Shown: piece by piece, positions 5,934 to 9,952 of the stretch | Layout of the letters: every line of letters starts with the position of its first letter | Position numbering within the stretch: the stretch's first letter is position 1 | From: Bacteroidota bacterium | Lineage (GTDB): Bacteria; Bacteroidota; Bacteroidia; Flavobacteriales; Flavobacteriaceae | Reading direction: 5' to 3' | Length of the DNA stretch: 35,184 nt | Assembly: GCA_027621505.1 (NCBI GenBank) | Contig: JAQCBK010000015.1 | Location: 1-35,184, forward strand | The notes under the pieces: generated by a model | Told to the model about the DNA's origin: nothing | Database searches by the model: none | The model's input: only the letters and a program-made list of their open reading frames with translations | Program-made: the position numbers and the translations under genes

Positions 5934-5968
5934 AAAAAAAACCTGCTTGAAAAAGCAGGTTTTTTTTA
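5934..5968. terminator. Bidirectional rho-independent terminator after groEL
   Basis: An 8-base-pair stem, ACCTGCTT (5941-5948) and AAGCAGGT (5953-5960), closes a GAAA loop. A run of seven A lies before the stem and eight T after it, so the hairpin can stop transcription in both directions. It sits between groEL and the stop codon of the convergent HMA gene, whose TAA begins at once after the T-run. Confidence 0.92.
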
Positions 5969-6304
5969 TTACTCTCTGTCATACTTACAACAATTGGGTA
6001 GAGCATCATAATCTTCCTCCTTGGCTTTGGCCTCTGAAGTATCATGCCCTTTGGCTGCAATTGCCGTATGAATGGCCTCTAGATTTACTTTAGCAGGATT
6101 ATAAATCAGCGAGATTTGATTGGAAGGAATATCCCAATCTGCTGACTTAACTCCCTTAATGGATAAAGCTGCTTTTTCGATTCTCTTTTCACAAATTTCG
6201 CAGTTTCCATGAACTTTAAAGTCTGCTTTTGTACTCTTTTTCTGATTGTCTTGGGCGACCATTCCCAATGGTAACGCCAATAAAATAATAAGGATTTTTT
6301 TCAT
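5969..6304 (-). CDS. Secreted heavy-metal-associated (HMA) domain protein
   Basis: This 111-residue protein has a signal peptide (MKKILIILLALPLGMVAQ, cleavage likely after A17 or Q18) followed by one HMA fold like that of CopZ and Atx1 metallochaperones. The metal site is C35-x-x-C38 in GNCEICEKRIEKAA; the usual GMTC lead is replaced by GNCEIC, as in many secreted Bacteroidota members. A lysine and glutamate-rich tail ends in a second pair, C105-C106 (LPNCCKYD), not part of the HMA core. It would bind soft metals such as copper(I) in the periplasm. It is the last gene of a minus-strand operon, 24 bases after the TonB receptor, and its stop abuts the shared terminator. The metal is not proven by sequence. 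Confidence 0.88.
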   Translation of the reverse strand: MKKILIILLALPLGMVAQDNQKKSTKADFKVHGNCEICEKRIEKAALSIKGVKSADWDIPSNQISLIYNPAKVNLEAIHTAIAAKGHDTSEAKAKEEDYDALPNCCKYDRE

Positions 6305-6328
6305 GATTTTTATAATTAATAATTAACA

Positions 6329-8554
6329 CTAAATTTTAAATCTTAAACCGGAATAAACCATCCCTCCAAATATAGGGGCATAAACCTGAGCCGCATCAAA
6401 ATCGGCTCCAAAAGGGTCATCTGATCCTATAATCGGAGAGGATTGTCTATAATTCCCAATATTTTCACCTCCTAAATATAGTTCAAATTTTTTTGAGAAT
6501 ACATGGGTCAACTGTGTATTCCACAATGAATAATTAGGCGAAAAACCTCCTGGACGATCTATGAGATTGTGAACCAATCGCTGTGCTCCCACATAATGAT
6601 AGGTCAGATCATACCGCCACTGTTTACCCCCCGCAGTGGTTTTACTTTCCCAACCCAAATTGGCAAAAAAGCGATTTTTGGCCAATAAGGGTTTTTGTAA
6701 AAGTCCACTTTTATAGTCCATTTGTACATCGTAATTTTTATAGGCTGCTCTAAAATTCAGATGGTTCCTGAAATTGTAATCCAATTCTACTTGAAAACTT
6801 TTTGCAGTACTCTCACCCTCTAAGTTATAAAAAGAAACCTCACGCGGATTTTCAAAATCAACTACGACTTGATTGGTGAATTGAGTGATGTAGTAATCTA
6901 CAGAAAGGGAGATTTGGTGGGGATCTCCAATATAAAATGATTTGGAAAGTCCCATCCCATAATTCCATGCTCTTTCAGGATTAAGCCCATAAATTTTACC
7001 TTGAGAAGATTGAATTTTTATGGACCTGTTGGTGGCAAATAGGGTTTGATTTTCTGCAAAAATATTGGCTGCTTTTCTGCCACTACCTGCCGATAACCTT
7101 ATGACAAATTTCTCCAAAGGAACATATCTAAAATGTAGCCTAGGCGTCAAAAAATTACCGAAATTGTTATGAAAATCCACTCGGACCCCCGCTATCAAAC
7201 TAAAATTGTCATTGTTGTCGTGGGTGAACTCAAAAAAACTGCCCACATTTTGATCTGTCCTATTGTAGGCATCACCATTTACCAACTCCACATAATCATC
7301 AAAACTATAATTTAAACCTACTTTAAATTTGTTAAGGGTATTGCCTATGATAGAGTTGAAAATTAAATTGGTATAAAAACTATCTTGGTTGATGTCATAG
7401 GTTCTCAATCCATAATACGAGTCTTGATTATGACTGCTGTATGCGGTTTGAACACCAAAGCTTTGATAAGGCGTCTCTGGAAATACATAACCCAATTTGA
7501 ATGAGCCATCCCAACGCTTGGTTTTAATTTCACTTCCCCAACGATTTTTCATTCCCCTGTCTTTTTGAGGATTGAAACTTAAAGTCCCAAGAAGTTTCTC
7601 ATCATTCATGTATCTCCAACTCAAAAAGCTGACCCATCCCTTTTCCATATCCGTATATTGCCATCGGTTCATCAAATTGATTTGCTCCGAAACAGGAAGG
7701 TCCAAAAAACCATCATTATTATTGTCGAATTTTTCGGTTCTTTTATTTCCGTGAAGGTAAAGGCCTGTACTCCAATTTTCATCAATTTTTTTATTGAAGT
7801 GGGTATTTATTTCATACCTGCCATTGATGGAGCCAAATAGATTGAGAAAGAATGGGAGATCAGTCATGGGTTTTTTCAACTCGGTATTGATTTGCCCCGA
7901 GATACTTTCAAAACCATTGGTTACCGATCCCGCCCCTTTACTGATTTGAATACTTTCAACCCAAGTACCAGGCGTAAAGGTCAACCCGTAGGCCTGAGAA
8001 GCTCCACGAACCATTGGGATATTTTCCTCCGAAATCAACAAATAAGTACTTGAAAGGCCAAGCATTTTGATTTGTTTGGTGCCTGTAAGAGCATCTGAAA
8101 AGTTCACATCTATGGCTGGATTGGTTTCAAAGCTTTCCGAAAGGTTACAACAAGCCGCTTTTAACAATTCATCACTACTCACTTTGAGGATATTTTGCGT
8201 CTCGATATAAGATTTTTGAGAAGCTTTTCGACGCTGAGTGAGGGTAACCTCGTCCAATTCGTCATCCTGATCTTGGATCATTTGGTGCCTGATGAATGGC
8301 ATTTGTATTTTTAATGTATCGGTCTTAAAACCGACATAACTAATGATCAATAAATCTGTCTCAGGTGTTTTTTCCAACTGAAAAGCACCTTCTATGTCCG
8401 TTACCGTTCCAATGGTGGTGTTTTGCCAAAAAACACTGGCTCCGGTCAATGGGTAAGTTTTATTATTCTCTTGATATTGTACGATTCCGTTAAGGGGGTC
8501 TTGAGAGAAGACCATACCCCACGAAAAACATACAATAAGTATATATTTTTTCAT
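6329..8554 (-). CDS. TonB-dependent outer-membrane receptor, probable metal transporter
   Basis: The 741-residue product has a signal peptide (to about residue 18), a carboxypeptidase-regulatory-like beta-sandwich (about 20-85, GASVFWQNTTIGTVTDIEGAF), a plug domain (about 115-235, ending GFESISGQINTELKKP) and a 22-strand-type barrel ending in the aromatic-flanked YSGLRFKI. It would import a chelated substrate across the outer membrane with energy from TonB-ExbBD. The plug begins with an unusual cysteine pair, C135-C136 (LLKAACCNLSESF), which could take part in soft-metal recognition. It sits between HMA-type genes with gaps of 24 and 50 bases, which makes copper or another thiophilic metal the likely cargo. 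The metal and any metallophore are inference; the receptor class is firm. Confidence 0.92.
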   Translation of the reverse strand: MKKYILIVCFSWGMVFSQDPLNGIVQYQENNKTYPLTGASVFWQNTTIGTVTDIEGAFQLEKTPETDLLIISYVGFKTDTLKIQMPFIRHQMIQDQDDELDEVTLTQRRKASQKSYIETQNILKVSSDELLKAACCNLSESFETNPAIDVNFSDALTGTKQIKMLGLSSTYLLISEENIPMVRGASQAYGLTFTPGTWVESIQISKGAGSVTNGFESISGQINTELKKPMTDLPFFLNLFGSINGRYEINTHFNKKIDENWSTGLYLHGNKRTEKFDNNNDGFLDLPVSEQINLMNRWQYTDMEKGWVSFLSWRYMNDEKLLGTLSFNPQKDRGMKNRWGSEIKTKRWDGSFKLGYVFPETPYQSFGVQTAYSSHNQDSYYGLRTYDINQDSFYTNLIFNSIIGNTLNKFKVGLNYSFDDYVELVNGDAYNRTDQNVGSFFEFTHDNNDNFSLIAGVRVDFHNNFGNFLTPRLHFRYVPLEKFVIRLSAGSGRKAANIFAENQTLFATNRSIKIQSSQGKIYGLNPERAWNYGMGLSKSFYIGDPHQISLSVDYYITQFTNQVVVDFENPREVSFYNLEGESTAKSFQVELDYNFRNHLNFRAAYKNYDVQMDYKSGLLQKPLLAKNRFFANLGWESKTTAGGKQWRYDLTYHYVGAQRLVHNLIDRPGGFSPNYSLWNTQLTHVFSKKFELYLGGENIGNYRQSSPIIGSDDPFGADFDAAQVYAPIFGGMVYSGLRFKI

Positions 8555-8604
8555 GATTTTAGGGTTTGATTTAACGTTAAATAGAAATTTAATTTAAAGT
8601 TGAA

Positions 8605-9018
8605 TCAGCCGTAAAAAATGAAACTTTGGTTTAAAAGGAAGATTTTATTTTTAGGAACAAGAAAATTTGGGTGGGTAAAAACCTCCTCGAAAGGAATGAT
8701 TTTTATGGTATTGAAAGATACCTTAGTGCTATTAGGGATTGTAAGCGTGCTAATTTGAAAATCATCGTTAACAGTTTTCTGGGGATGGTTGTTTTGGATA
8801 AAAATGGTTTCATCCTGACAGCAATGATTTTTGGTAACACTAATGCTTTGATGCCTGTCTTGACTTTTTTCCGTGGACATCTCACATCCATCTGCATTCC
8901 AAGCCAGAGCAATCTCCTCAATATGGCCACCACAATAATGAACATTCAGCGCCAGTCCAATTTTTGAAGTTAAAAAAATCAGACTGAAAAAAATGGCTTT
9001 AATGCTTCTTGTGTACAT
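8605..9018 (-). CDS. HYC_CC_PP-type cysteine-rich protein
   Basis: This 137-residue protein has an N-terminal hydrophobic segment (about residues 7-24) that may be a signal peptide or anchor, followed by H27-Y28-C29-G-G, a lone C45 and H65-C66-C67. That spacing of an HYC motif and a CC motif fits the small Bacteroidota family named HYC_CC_PP; the proline pair that gives the last part of the name is not evident here. The function of the family is not established. Cysteine and histidine content, and the place between an HMA-MauE fusion (36 bases upstream) and a TonB receptor (50 bases downstream), suggest metal binding or transfer at the membrane or in the periplasm. Confidence 0.72.
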   Translation of the reverse strand: MYTRSIKAIFFSLIFLTSKIGLALNVHYCGGHIEEIALAWNADGCEMSTEKSQDRHQSISVTKNHCCQDETIFIQNNHPQKTVNDDFQISTLTIPNSTKVSFNTIKIIPFEEVFTHPNFLVPKNKIFLLNQSFIFYG

Positions 9019-9054
9019 TATATACCTTGAGTTTATTTAATAAAGTTAAGGATT

Positions 9055-9771
9055 TTATCCCAATTGGTAAAACAACATCGTCACCGCCATGACCAGCATA
9101 ATTATATTTTCGATGAGCGTTGCTTCAGTCATGGGCAAATTTAAAGCAGTCCCCAAACAGGCACAATTGATCTTTTTTTTATCAAAAAGAGTATAAATAA
9201 CCCCGATGGTAGTGATGGATAAGATCACAATGGTGGCAATAAAAACAAAGGTTAACTGCCAACGGAGTAATAACATCAAAGCCAAAAGGGTCTCAATAAA
9301 AGGGTAAGCCTTACCATAAAAAGCGCTTCTTTTAGCCAATGGATCGTATTGTGCAAAAGCAGAGGGAAACCCCTTATAATCTAAAAATTTAAAAAAACTG
9401 AAAACTATAAAAAATAGCCCCATAAAATCGATCATAAAGTTGGAGACCCTAAAAGTGTTTTTTTGGAGCAGAACGGCACCGGCAATCAGGTAAACAAAAA
9501 TCAAAAAAAGTGGGAATAGTTGTTTTAATTTAGAGGCGGACTCCAGAGAGGAGGTATCTTCATACTTCGACTCAAGGGATGGTATGTATTTGGGGGGTAA
9601 AACTTTCAAAAGTTTTTTCATTGTCAATGTTTTTGACACCTCCAACTCTACATTTCCATTGGCCAAATTTATTTTAAGGTCTTCTACCTCATCCAAATGG
9701 ATCAATTTTTCCGTCACCGAGGAGACACAAGCTTCACAGGTCATCCCCGTAATTTTTATATTTTGTTTCAT
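9055..9771 (-). CDS. HMA-MauE fusion membrane protein
   Basis: The 238-residue product joins a cytoplasmic-type HMA domain (residues 1-60, metal site C12-x-x-C15 in GMTCEACVSSV) to a four-helix membrane domain (about 86-235) of the MauE/DoxX-like class, linked by a short polar stretch. The helices lie roughly at 86-103, 113-130, 157-195 and 218-236. A loop between the last two carries C203-A-C205 (KKINCACLGT), a place where MauE-like proteins often hold redox or metal cysteines. It is the first gene of the four-gene metal operon. Likely roles are metal sensing, transfer or thiol maintenance at the inner membrane; the sequence does not choose between them. A TACCTTTG box on the minus strand (9885-9878) may be its promoter. 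Confidence 0.85.
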   Translation of the reverse strand: MKQNIKITGMTCEACVSSVTEKLIHLDEVEDLKINLANGNVELEVSKTLTMKKLLKVLPPKYIPSLESKYEDTSSLESASKLKQLFPLFLIFVYLIAGAVLLQKNTFRVSNFMIDFMGLFFIVFSFFKFLDYKGFPSAFAQYDPLAKRSAFYGKAYPFIETLLALMLLLRWQLTFVFIATIVILSITTIGVIYTLFDKKKINCACLGTALNLPMTEATLIENIIMLVMAVTMLFYQLG

Positions 9772-9877
9772 TGTTGAAAAGTGGGCTTTTTTTGGTTAAT
9801 TAAACGCCAGAAATAGAGGCGAAATTAGATTTTTCCCTAGGAGGTTTTTAATATTTTTGTGCTGTTGAGTCAATGTA

Positions 9878-9885
9878 CAAAGGTA
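9878..9885 (-). promoter_or_regulatory. Candidate -7 element of the metal operon
   Basis: The minus strand reads TACCTTTG here, an exact match to the Bacteroidota -7 consensus TAnnTTTG, about 107 bases before the start of the HMA-MauE gene. No well-spaced TTG -33 box is visible, so the call rests on the -7 element alone. The 181-base gap between this operon and purH holds both divergent promoters; I find no clear one for purH. Confidence 0.35.
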
Positions 9886-9952
9886 CTCCAAATCCATCAA
9901 CGAAGACCTAAAAAAACAGAGACCCTAAAAATTCATCGAATAAGAATAATAA

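Follow-up and report, generated by a model that had tools for sequence, protein, structure and literature searches.

A candidate copper acquisition operon of Bacteroidota centred on a TonB-dependent receptor with a conserved cysteine pair in its plug

What task could join, in one operon, a membrane protein with an HMA domain, a HYC_CC_PP family protein, a TonB-dependent receptor and a secreted HMA protein, each of which carries a close pair of cysteines? The question is raised by a 35,184-nucleotide stretch of a Flavobacteriaceae genome (assembly GCA_027621505.1, contig JAQCBK010000015.1, positions 1 to 35,184), hereafter the window, in which four open reading frames (ORFs), all on the minus strand, span positions 9771 to 5969. 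We propose, with a probability of roughly two in three, that Bacteroidota use this operon to acquire copper and hand it on; the metal, the direction of import and the relay between components are read from conserved residues and genomic context.

A linked core of three genes with an optional fourth

The operon comprises the following features.

9055..9771, minus strand: gene 1, HMA-MauE fusion, 238 amino acids (Pfam HMA and MauE)
8605..9018, minus strand: gene 2, HYC_CC_PP family protein, predicted exported, 137 amino acids (NF047658)
6329..8554, minus strand: gene 3, TonB-dependent receptor, 741 amino acids (Pfam Plug and CarbopepD_reg_2)
5969..6304, minus strand: gene 4, secreted HMA protein, 111 amino acids (Pfam HMA)
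8147..8152, minus strand: codons of C135-C136 in the receptor plug motif AACCNLSESF (conservation and plug profile)
7751..7753, minus strand: codon of receptor H268, the most conserved histidine of the receptor clade

Re-reading of the ORFs returned exactly what the initial annotation of this DNA had described, namely four same-strand genes separated by gaps of 36, 50 and 24 bases, with every cysteine at the position it gave; its domain names were upheld by the Pfam HMA, MauE, Plug and CarbopepD_reg_2 scores and by NF047658, and two further cysteines were added, C45 of HYC_CC_PP and C9 of the receptor. A close cysteine pair, with 0-2 residues between, was present in 4/4 operon products and in 4/24 of the other window proteins read, and the chance of finding such a pair in all four operon products was p = 0.003.

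A receptor-based genome scan confirmed 429 stretches, and the 80 best, nearly all from one family, were kept; the window itself (L001) was excluded from conservation counts, and rows at contig ends (L041 and L078 for HMA; L011, L056 and L074 for HYC) were excluded from counts of loci with room. The receptor was found in 80/80 of these loci, an HMA gene beside it in 78/78 with room and HYC in 75/77 with room, being missing from L008 and L010. Because the loci were chosen by similarity and come nearly all from one family, this linkage shows stability rather than independent selection. The phylum was surveyed through 395 Bacteroidota genomes; gene neighbourhoods were retrieved for nearly every HYC match listed and for 46 further receptors. 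HYC_CC_PP was found in 118 of the 395 (106 over the cut-off) and, among 81 receptors of the ACC type in longer loci, HYC was near in 60 and either HYC or HMA in 75. Six plasmid records among the matches were used as context only.

HYC_CC_PP, the TonB receptor and the secreted HMA protein form a linked core across Bacteroidota, and HMA-MauE is an optional fourth part. Its gene was present in 38/80 related loci, either before HYC or between HYC and the receptor. A fixed four-gene operon, the unit in which the locus had initially been described, is ruled out by its absence from about half of the 80 loci. Two doubts raised at the same time, that linkage might be confined to this clone and that the cysteines might be absent from orthologues, were not borne out, as linkage was found in the 80 loci and across Bacteroidota and few positions vary as little as the paired cysteines.

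Paired cysteines in the plug and in its periplasmic partners

The receptor consists of a CarboxypepD-like domain, a plug (27.9 bits against a Pfam cut-off of 23.9, which places it among TonB-dependent receptors) and a barrel of TonB receptor type, the AlphaFold2 model of which resembles the folds of Cir, BtuB, ZnuD and OprC; a sequence search at 1e-10 returned no solved-structure relative. Of its three cysteines, C9 lies in the signal sequence and is not conserved (12/79 in the Flavobacteriaceae set). C135 and C136 were kept in 78/79 receptors of that set, with one gap, and in 13/13 of a distant set whose median column identity to the window receptor is 0.23. When a plug profile was run against the 395 Bacteroidota genomes, 105 genomes scored at least 116.7 bits and the next receptors at most 64.9 bits; with no scores between these values, the receptor clade is sharp. 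The ACC pattern was matched by 102/107 receptor rows; among the remaining five, L105 and L108 carry ACCNI and so keep the cysteine pair, L216 is a C-terminal fragment, and L159 and the second receptor of L267 are off-pattern. The best-conserved histidine, H268, is a candidate third metal ligand; among 80 receptors chosen beforehand for their CC it was present in 75, and this choice makes the C135/C136 figure of those rows uninformative. A weak alignment to Cir (E 0.04) put C135-C136 just ahead of the first plug helix.

The secreted HMA protein (35.2 bits against a Pfam HMA cut-off of 24.8) carries C35xxC38 and a C-terminal C105-C106-x-Y. In the Flavobacteriaceae set C35/C38 were found in 77/77 and C105/C106 in 76/77, with one gap, and all four cysteines were present in 15/15 of the distant set. 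Its closest solved relatives are copper ATPase domains, and the HMA domains of ZntA and MerP match too. Among the 81 longer loci, HMA was fused to the receptor N-terminus in 12 and adjoined the receptor in 41 more. The fusions begin with an exported leader, followed by HMA with its CxxC and CC, by either a His-rich linker or a CarboxypepD domain, and by the plug; they were present in 8/8 sampled genomes of family f2, which belongs to the same order as the window, and in four genomes of f3 and f4. In the f2 fusion proteins read, two HMA units were seen in L254 and L275 and one in L263. The N-terminus of such TonB receptors is periplasmic, and the N-terminal fusion hence places the HMA thiols in the periplasm, beside the plug. 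One further single frame, L080:7932-10427, joins a receptor to a C-terminal HMA; it was set aside as fusion evidence because an export-signal-like stretch separates the two parts, which makes a lost stop or sequence error likely. At L064:10556-11074 a PepSY_TM-type gene (PF03929, 31.6 bits) stands right after the HMA gene, and the same cluster, c29, recurs in L032, L034 and L035.

Gene 2 belongs to NF047658 HYC_CC_PP (67.8 bits, cut-off 28), with a hydrophobic segment at residues 6-24 and key residues H27, C29, C45 and C66-C67. C29, C66 and C67 were invariant in 74/74 Flavobacteriaceae proteins and C45 was kept in 63/74; in the distant set C66/C67 were found in 43/43 and C29 in 41/43. The predicted fold had a mean predicted local distance difference test score (pLDDT) of 67 and no PDB match below E 1.7.

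Copper, the direction of transport and alternative readings

The neighbours of HYC genes bear on the identity of the metal. Within at most four genes of 148 distinct HYC genes, a CusA-type RND gene was found for 60 and a CC-plug receptor for 58 (52 by the first pattern and 6 with ACCS or ACCT); the others had HMA only (12), a P-type ATPase (8), a CusB-like gene only (3) or none of these (7). CusA-motif matches numbered 55, a count not de-duplicated by gene, and all had the A/S-I/V-G-x3-D form; the DFG form, which we take to mark the divalent type, was seen in 0 of these 55 matches near HYC genes. Sampled CusA proteins scored over the TIGR00914 cut-off in L118, L152 and L294, and the split half of a CusA in L127 fell below it. 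ATPases in or beside receptor operons exceeded the TIGR01511 cut-off in L053, L162, L168 and L265. A third HYC context was also noted (L133, L135, L175, L183, L185 and L189), where HYC is followed by a 170-205 amino acid HMA-type protein and unknown proteins, one of which, L133:10485-11891, had no Pfam match when tested. From this genomic context copper is the most likely metal of the line, and silver is indistinguishable from it by sequence. A survey of co-occurrence and of nearby copper genes, as the initial annotation had suggested, found the core linked and CusA, copper ATPases and multicopper oxidases among the neighbours; of its proposal of a complete copper uptake or buffering line, copper is supported by genomic context, and complete uptake goes beyond the data, as import is suggested by the class of the receptor.

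HMA-MauE matches both HMA (36.3 bits, cut-off 24.8) and MauE PF07291 (71.5 bits, cut-off 27), with a cytosolic-type HMA motif, C12xxC15, and C203-A-C205-L-G in the membrane MauE domain. All four cysteines were present in 38/38 HMA-MauE proteins of the Flavobacteriaceae set, the CACLG motif being one among many conserved positions. From a reading of charge and computed hydrophobic segments, the HMA domain and the CACLG loop, which follows KKK, probably face the cytosol. The gene lies within Cus clusters at L294, L295, L309 and L313 and adjoins multicopper oxidases in L294 and L301. In the family sample of 41 genomes a CopA-type ATPase, counted at E < 1e-150, was found in 4/12 genomes with HMA-MauE and in 28/29 others (p = 4.2e-5, uncorrected for ancestry); at most 3 ATPase candidates per genome were scored, so five of the eight CopA-lacking genomes (G134, G226, G343, G355 and G375) are uncertain. 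With both samples pooled and the genus of the window counted once, p was 0.0018. Among CopA-lacking genomes, HMA-MauE lies inside a Cus cluster in G312 (L294, fully scored) and G355 (L295, not fully scored), which would fit a contribution to Cu(I) export from the cytosol.

Two observations concern the surroundings of HMA-MauE. Often found next to it in copper clusters are AraC-type regulators whose N-terminus reads KNMVCxRC or nearly so (L301:6300-6869, L297, L298, L300, L302-L307 and L310); they are possible copper sensors, and that of L301, for which alone this was tested, gave a weak HMA match of 22.2 bits against a cut-off of 24.8. In one genome an ArsP-type permease gene (L312:7829-9067, PF03773, 192.1 bits) stands beside HMA-MauE.

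The genome of the window (1.85 Mb, 86 % complete) has COX1 and a neighbouring subunit II gene, the genes of an aa3-type oxidase, and three HMA proteins, of which the operon encodes two. No P1B ATPase was found in this 86 % complete assembly, and the best CusA score was 134 bits against a cut-off of 701. Within its genus a P1B ATPase of any kind was found in 1/22 genomes (279.6 bits, below the cut-off), the receptor in 18/22 and HMA-MauE in 17/22; an incomplete assembly could account for a missing P1B ATPase in a single genome, but the same lack is seen in nearly all of the genus.

On the reading that we favour, the TonB receptor would import copper into the periplasm, either free or in a weak chelate, and the invariant plug cysteine pair would relay Cu(I) from a position at the plug core or beneath it. 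The metal would then pass by thiol exchange to the exported HMA protein, which has CxxC and a C-terminal CC and is fused to the receptor in some families, and HYC_CC_PP, which also occurs in Cus efflux clusters, may serve as a second periplasmic thiol/His copper carrier. At the inner membrane HMA-MauE would handle Cu(I), replacing a CopA-type ATPase in many genomes, and would either limit cytosolic Cu(I) or feed the cytosol. The likely client in this streamlined marine genome would be assembly of the aa3-type cytochrome oxidase.

Several points weigh against copper acquisition. Transport direction cannot be fixed by sequence, and HYC and HMA-MauE occur in efflux clusters as well, so neither of them has to be an uptake component. 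HMA domains bind Zn, Cd or Hg too. Most of the plug was modelled at pLDDT <50 (residues 98-130, 143-180 and 184-224; AlphaFold2), which makes the location of C135-C136 tentative, and the OprC site CxxxM was found neither in the window receptor nor in its relatives (0/79 and 0/13). Six of the 81 receptor loci had neither HYC nor HMA. The inverse association between HMA-MauE and CopA, for which all p-values ignore ancestry, falls to p = 0.018 without the five incompletely scored genomes.

A bolder version would make HMA-MauE a new type of Cu(I) membrane transporter in place of the CopA ATPase, with naked Cu(I) passed by the receptor through the vicinal thiols of its plug straight to a tethered HMA protein, so that copper crosses the envelope by thiol exchange and without an ATPase; this appears to us unlikely. 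Among the rival readings we rank first, and also hold to be unlikely, a role in copper defence or buffering, in which HYC, the secreted HMA protein and HMA-MauE would hold Cu(I) back in the envelope, with the receptor recovering or regulating a copper-binding compound instead of feeding the cell. HYC and HMA-MauE do occur in clusters with CusCBA and multicopper oxidases, and CusA and P-type ATPase genes, as annotated, lie close to a plasmid copy from Haliscomenobacter; however, the operon is kept in the genome of the window without a CusA over the cut-off and without a detected P1B ATPase, such ATPases are missing from nearly all of its genus, and known TonB receptors are energised importers.

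That the same line serves another metal or several, such as zinc, silver, mercury or cadmium, is improbable in our view. The matches to the HMA domains of ZntA and MerP would allow it, but among solved structures the secreted HMA protein is closest to copper ATPase domains, and the neighbouring genes encode CusA of the Cu/Ag type, TIGR01511 ATPases and multicopper oxidases. A mercury system as such was ruled out, with MerP at 15.9 bits (cut-off 92.55), MerTP at 28.4 (180) and all Mer scores far below cut-off. Least probable is a structural or redox role, with the pairs as vicinal or CxxC disulfides and HMA-MauE as an electron-transfer partner like MauE/DoxX-type proteins, since, despite the redox-associated name of MauE proteins and a thioredoxin reductase gene that, in a plasmid copy from Parabacteroides, lies four genes upstream of the receptor, the HMA CxxC is a metal site in solved relatives, by their names, and the surrounding clusters are copper clusters.

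Flanking features and comparison with known systems

The operon is convergent with groEL and divergent from purH; most of the 80 loci are flanked by groEL at one end and, at the opposite end, by purH, a GAF-type gene or an exosortase-like gene (a match below the cut-off). Two further features lie at its ends.

5940..5961, strand unassigned: perfect hairpin AACCTGCTT-GAAA-AAGCAGGTT with a T run on each strand (sequence)
9772..9952, minus strand: upstream region in common with divergent purH (window aligned with 10 relatives)

The hairpin is likely a shared terminator of groEL (plus strand) and the operon (minus strand); it was absent from the output of a terminator scan. Within the upstream region, GGTTAATTAAAC (9794-9805) and TTTTAATATTTTTG (9846-9859) lie inside blocks kept among close relatives in the same alignment; they are AT-rich, one is near-palindromic, and they may form an operator or promoter. 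No RNA family matched within the window.

Copper uptake by Gram-negative bacteria is largely open, and the copper receptors cited here come mostly from Proteobacteria. If our reading is correct, a receptor clade with a sharp ACC plug signature, present in about a quarter of the sampled Bacteroidota genomes (105/395), would give the phylum a defined copper entry route, and would explain how an aa3-type oxidase could be supplied in streamlined marine Flavobacteriaceae, which apparently lack P1B copper ATPases. We found no description of the gene set or of the plug motif in the openly licensed PMC literature, which is no proof of absence.

With OprC and NosA the window receptor has in common the TonB receptor fold, proposed copper import and a plug cysteine; in the portion of the source available, OprC combines a plug CxxxM with a barrel HxM and is proposed to import copper (PMC8610252). 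The window receptor instead has CC about 30 residues past the presumed TonB box, and HMA and HYC partners. Membership of OprC/NosA is ruled out, as there is no CxxxM in its plug and no HxM in its barrel, the sole HxM being at residue 90, ahead of the plug. For Bizionia a different, OprC-like receptor has been proposed in the available part of its source (PMC11213822). CrtA (BfrG) of Bordetella and others is described, in the accessible sections of PMC12914433, as a copper receptor tied to heme-copper oxidases, mostly of beta- and gamma-Proteobacteria, with no conserved Cys or Met and a site of E337, Q356, H358, R395, W265 and Y130, whereas the receptor clade of the window carries a conserved cysteine pair; PepSY_TM genes accompany CrtA in Proteobacteria as they do some loci here (L064). 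Caulobacter TccA offers a further likeness, as a TonB receptor tied to the aa3 oxidase where CopA is missing: according to the sections available, it is required for that oxidase and copper rescues its loss in a cell without CopA, but its proposed site is His116/His321, and those sections do not mention an HMA/HYC operon (PMC12617631). Together, TccA and CrtA indicate that TonB receptors can serve oxidases, as far as the available text of both sources goes (PMC12617631, PMC12914433).

At the inner membrane, MerT/MerP and the MerT-CopZ fusion likewise pair a membrane part bearing HMA with a periplasmic HMA protein, but the membrane domain here is MauE rather than MerT and the neighbours are copper-type. 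HMA-MauE also resembles CopA-type P1B ATPases in its HMA domain and in the operon place that these occupy at L053 and L162, yet it has no ATPase domain.

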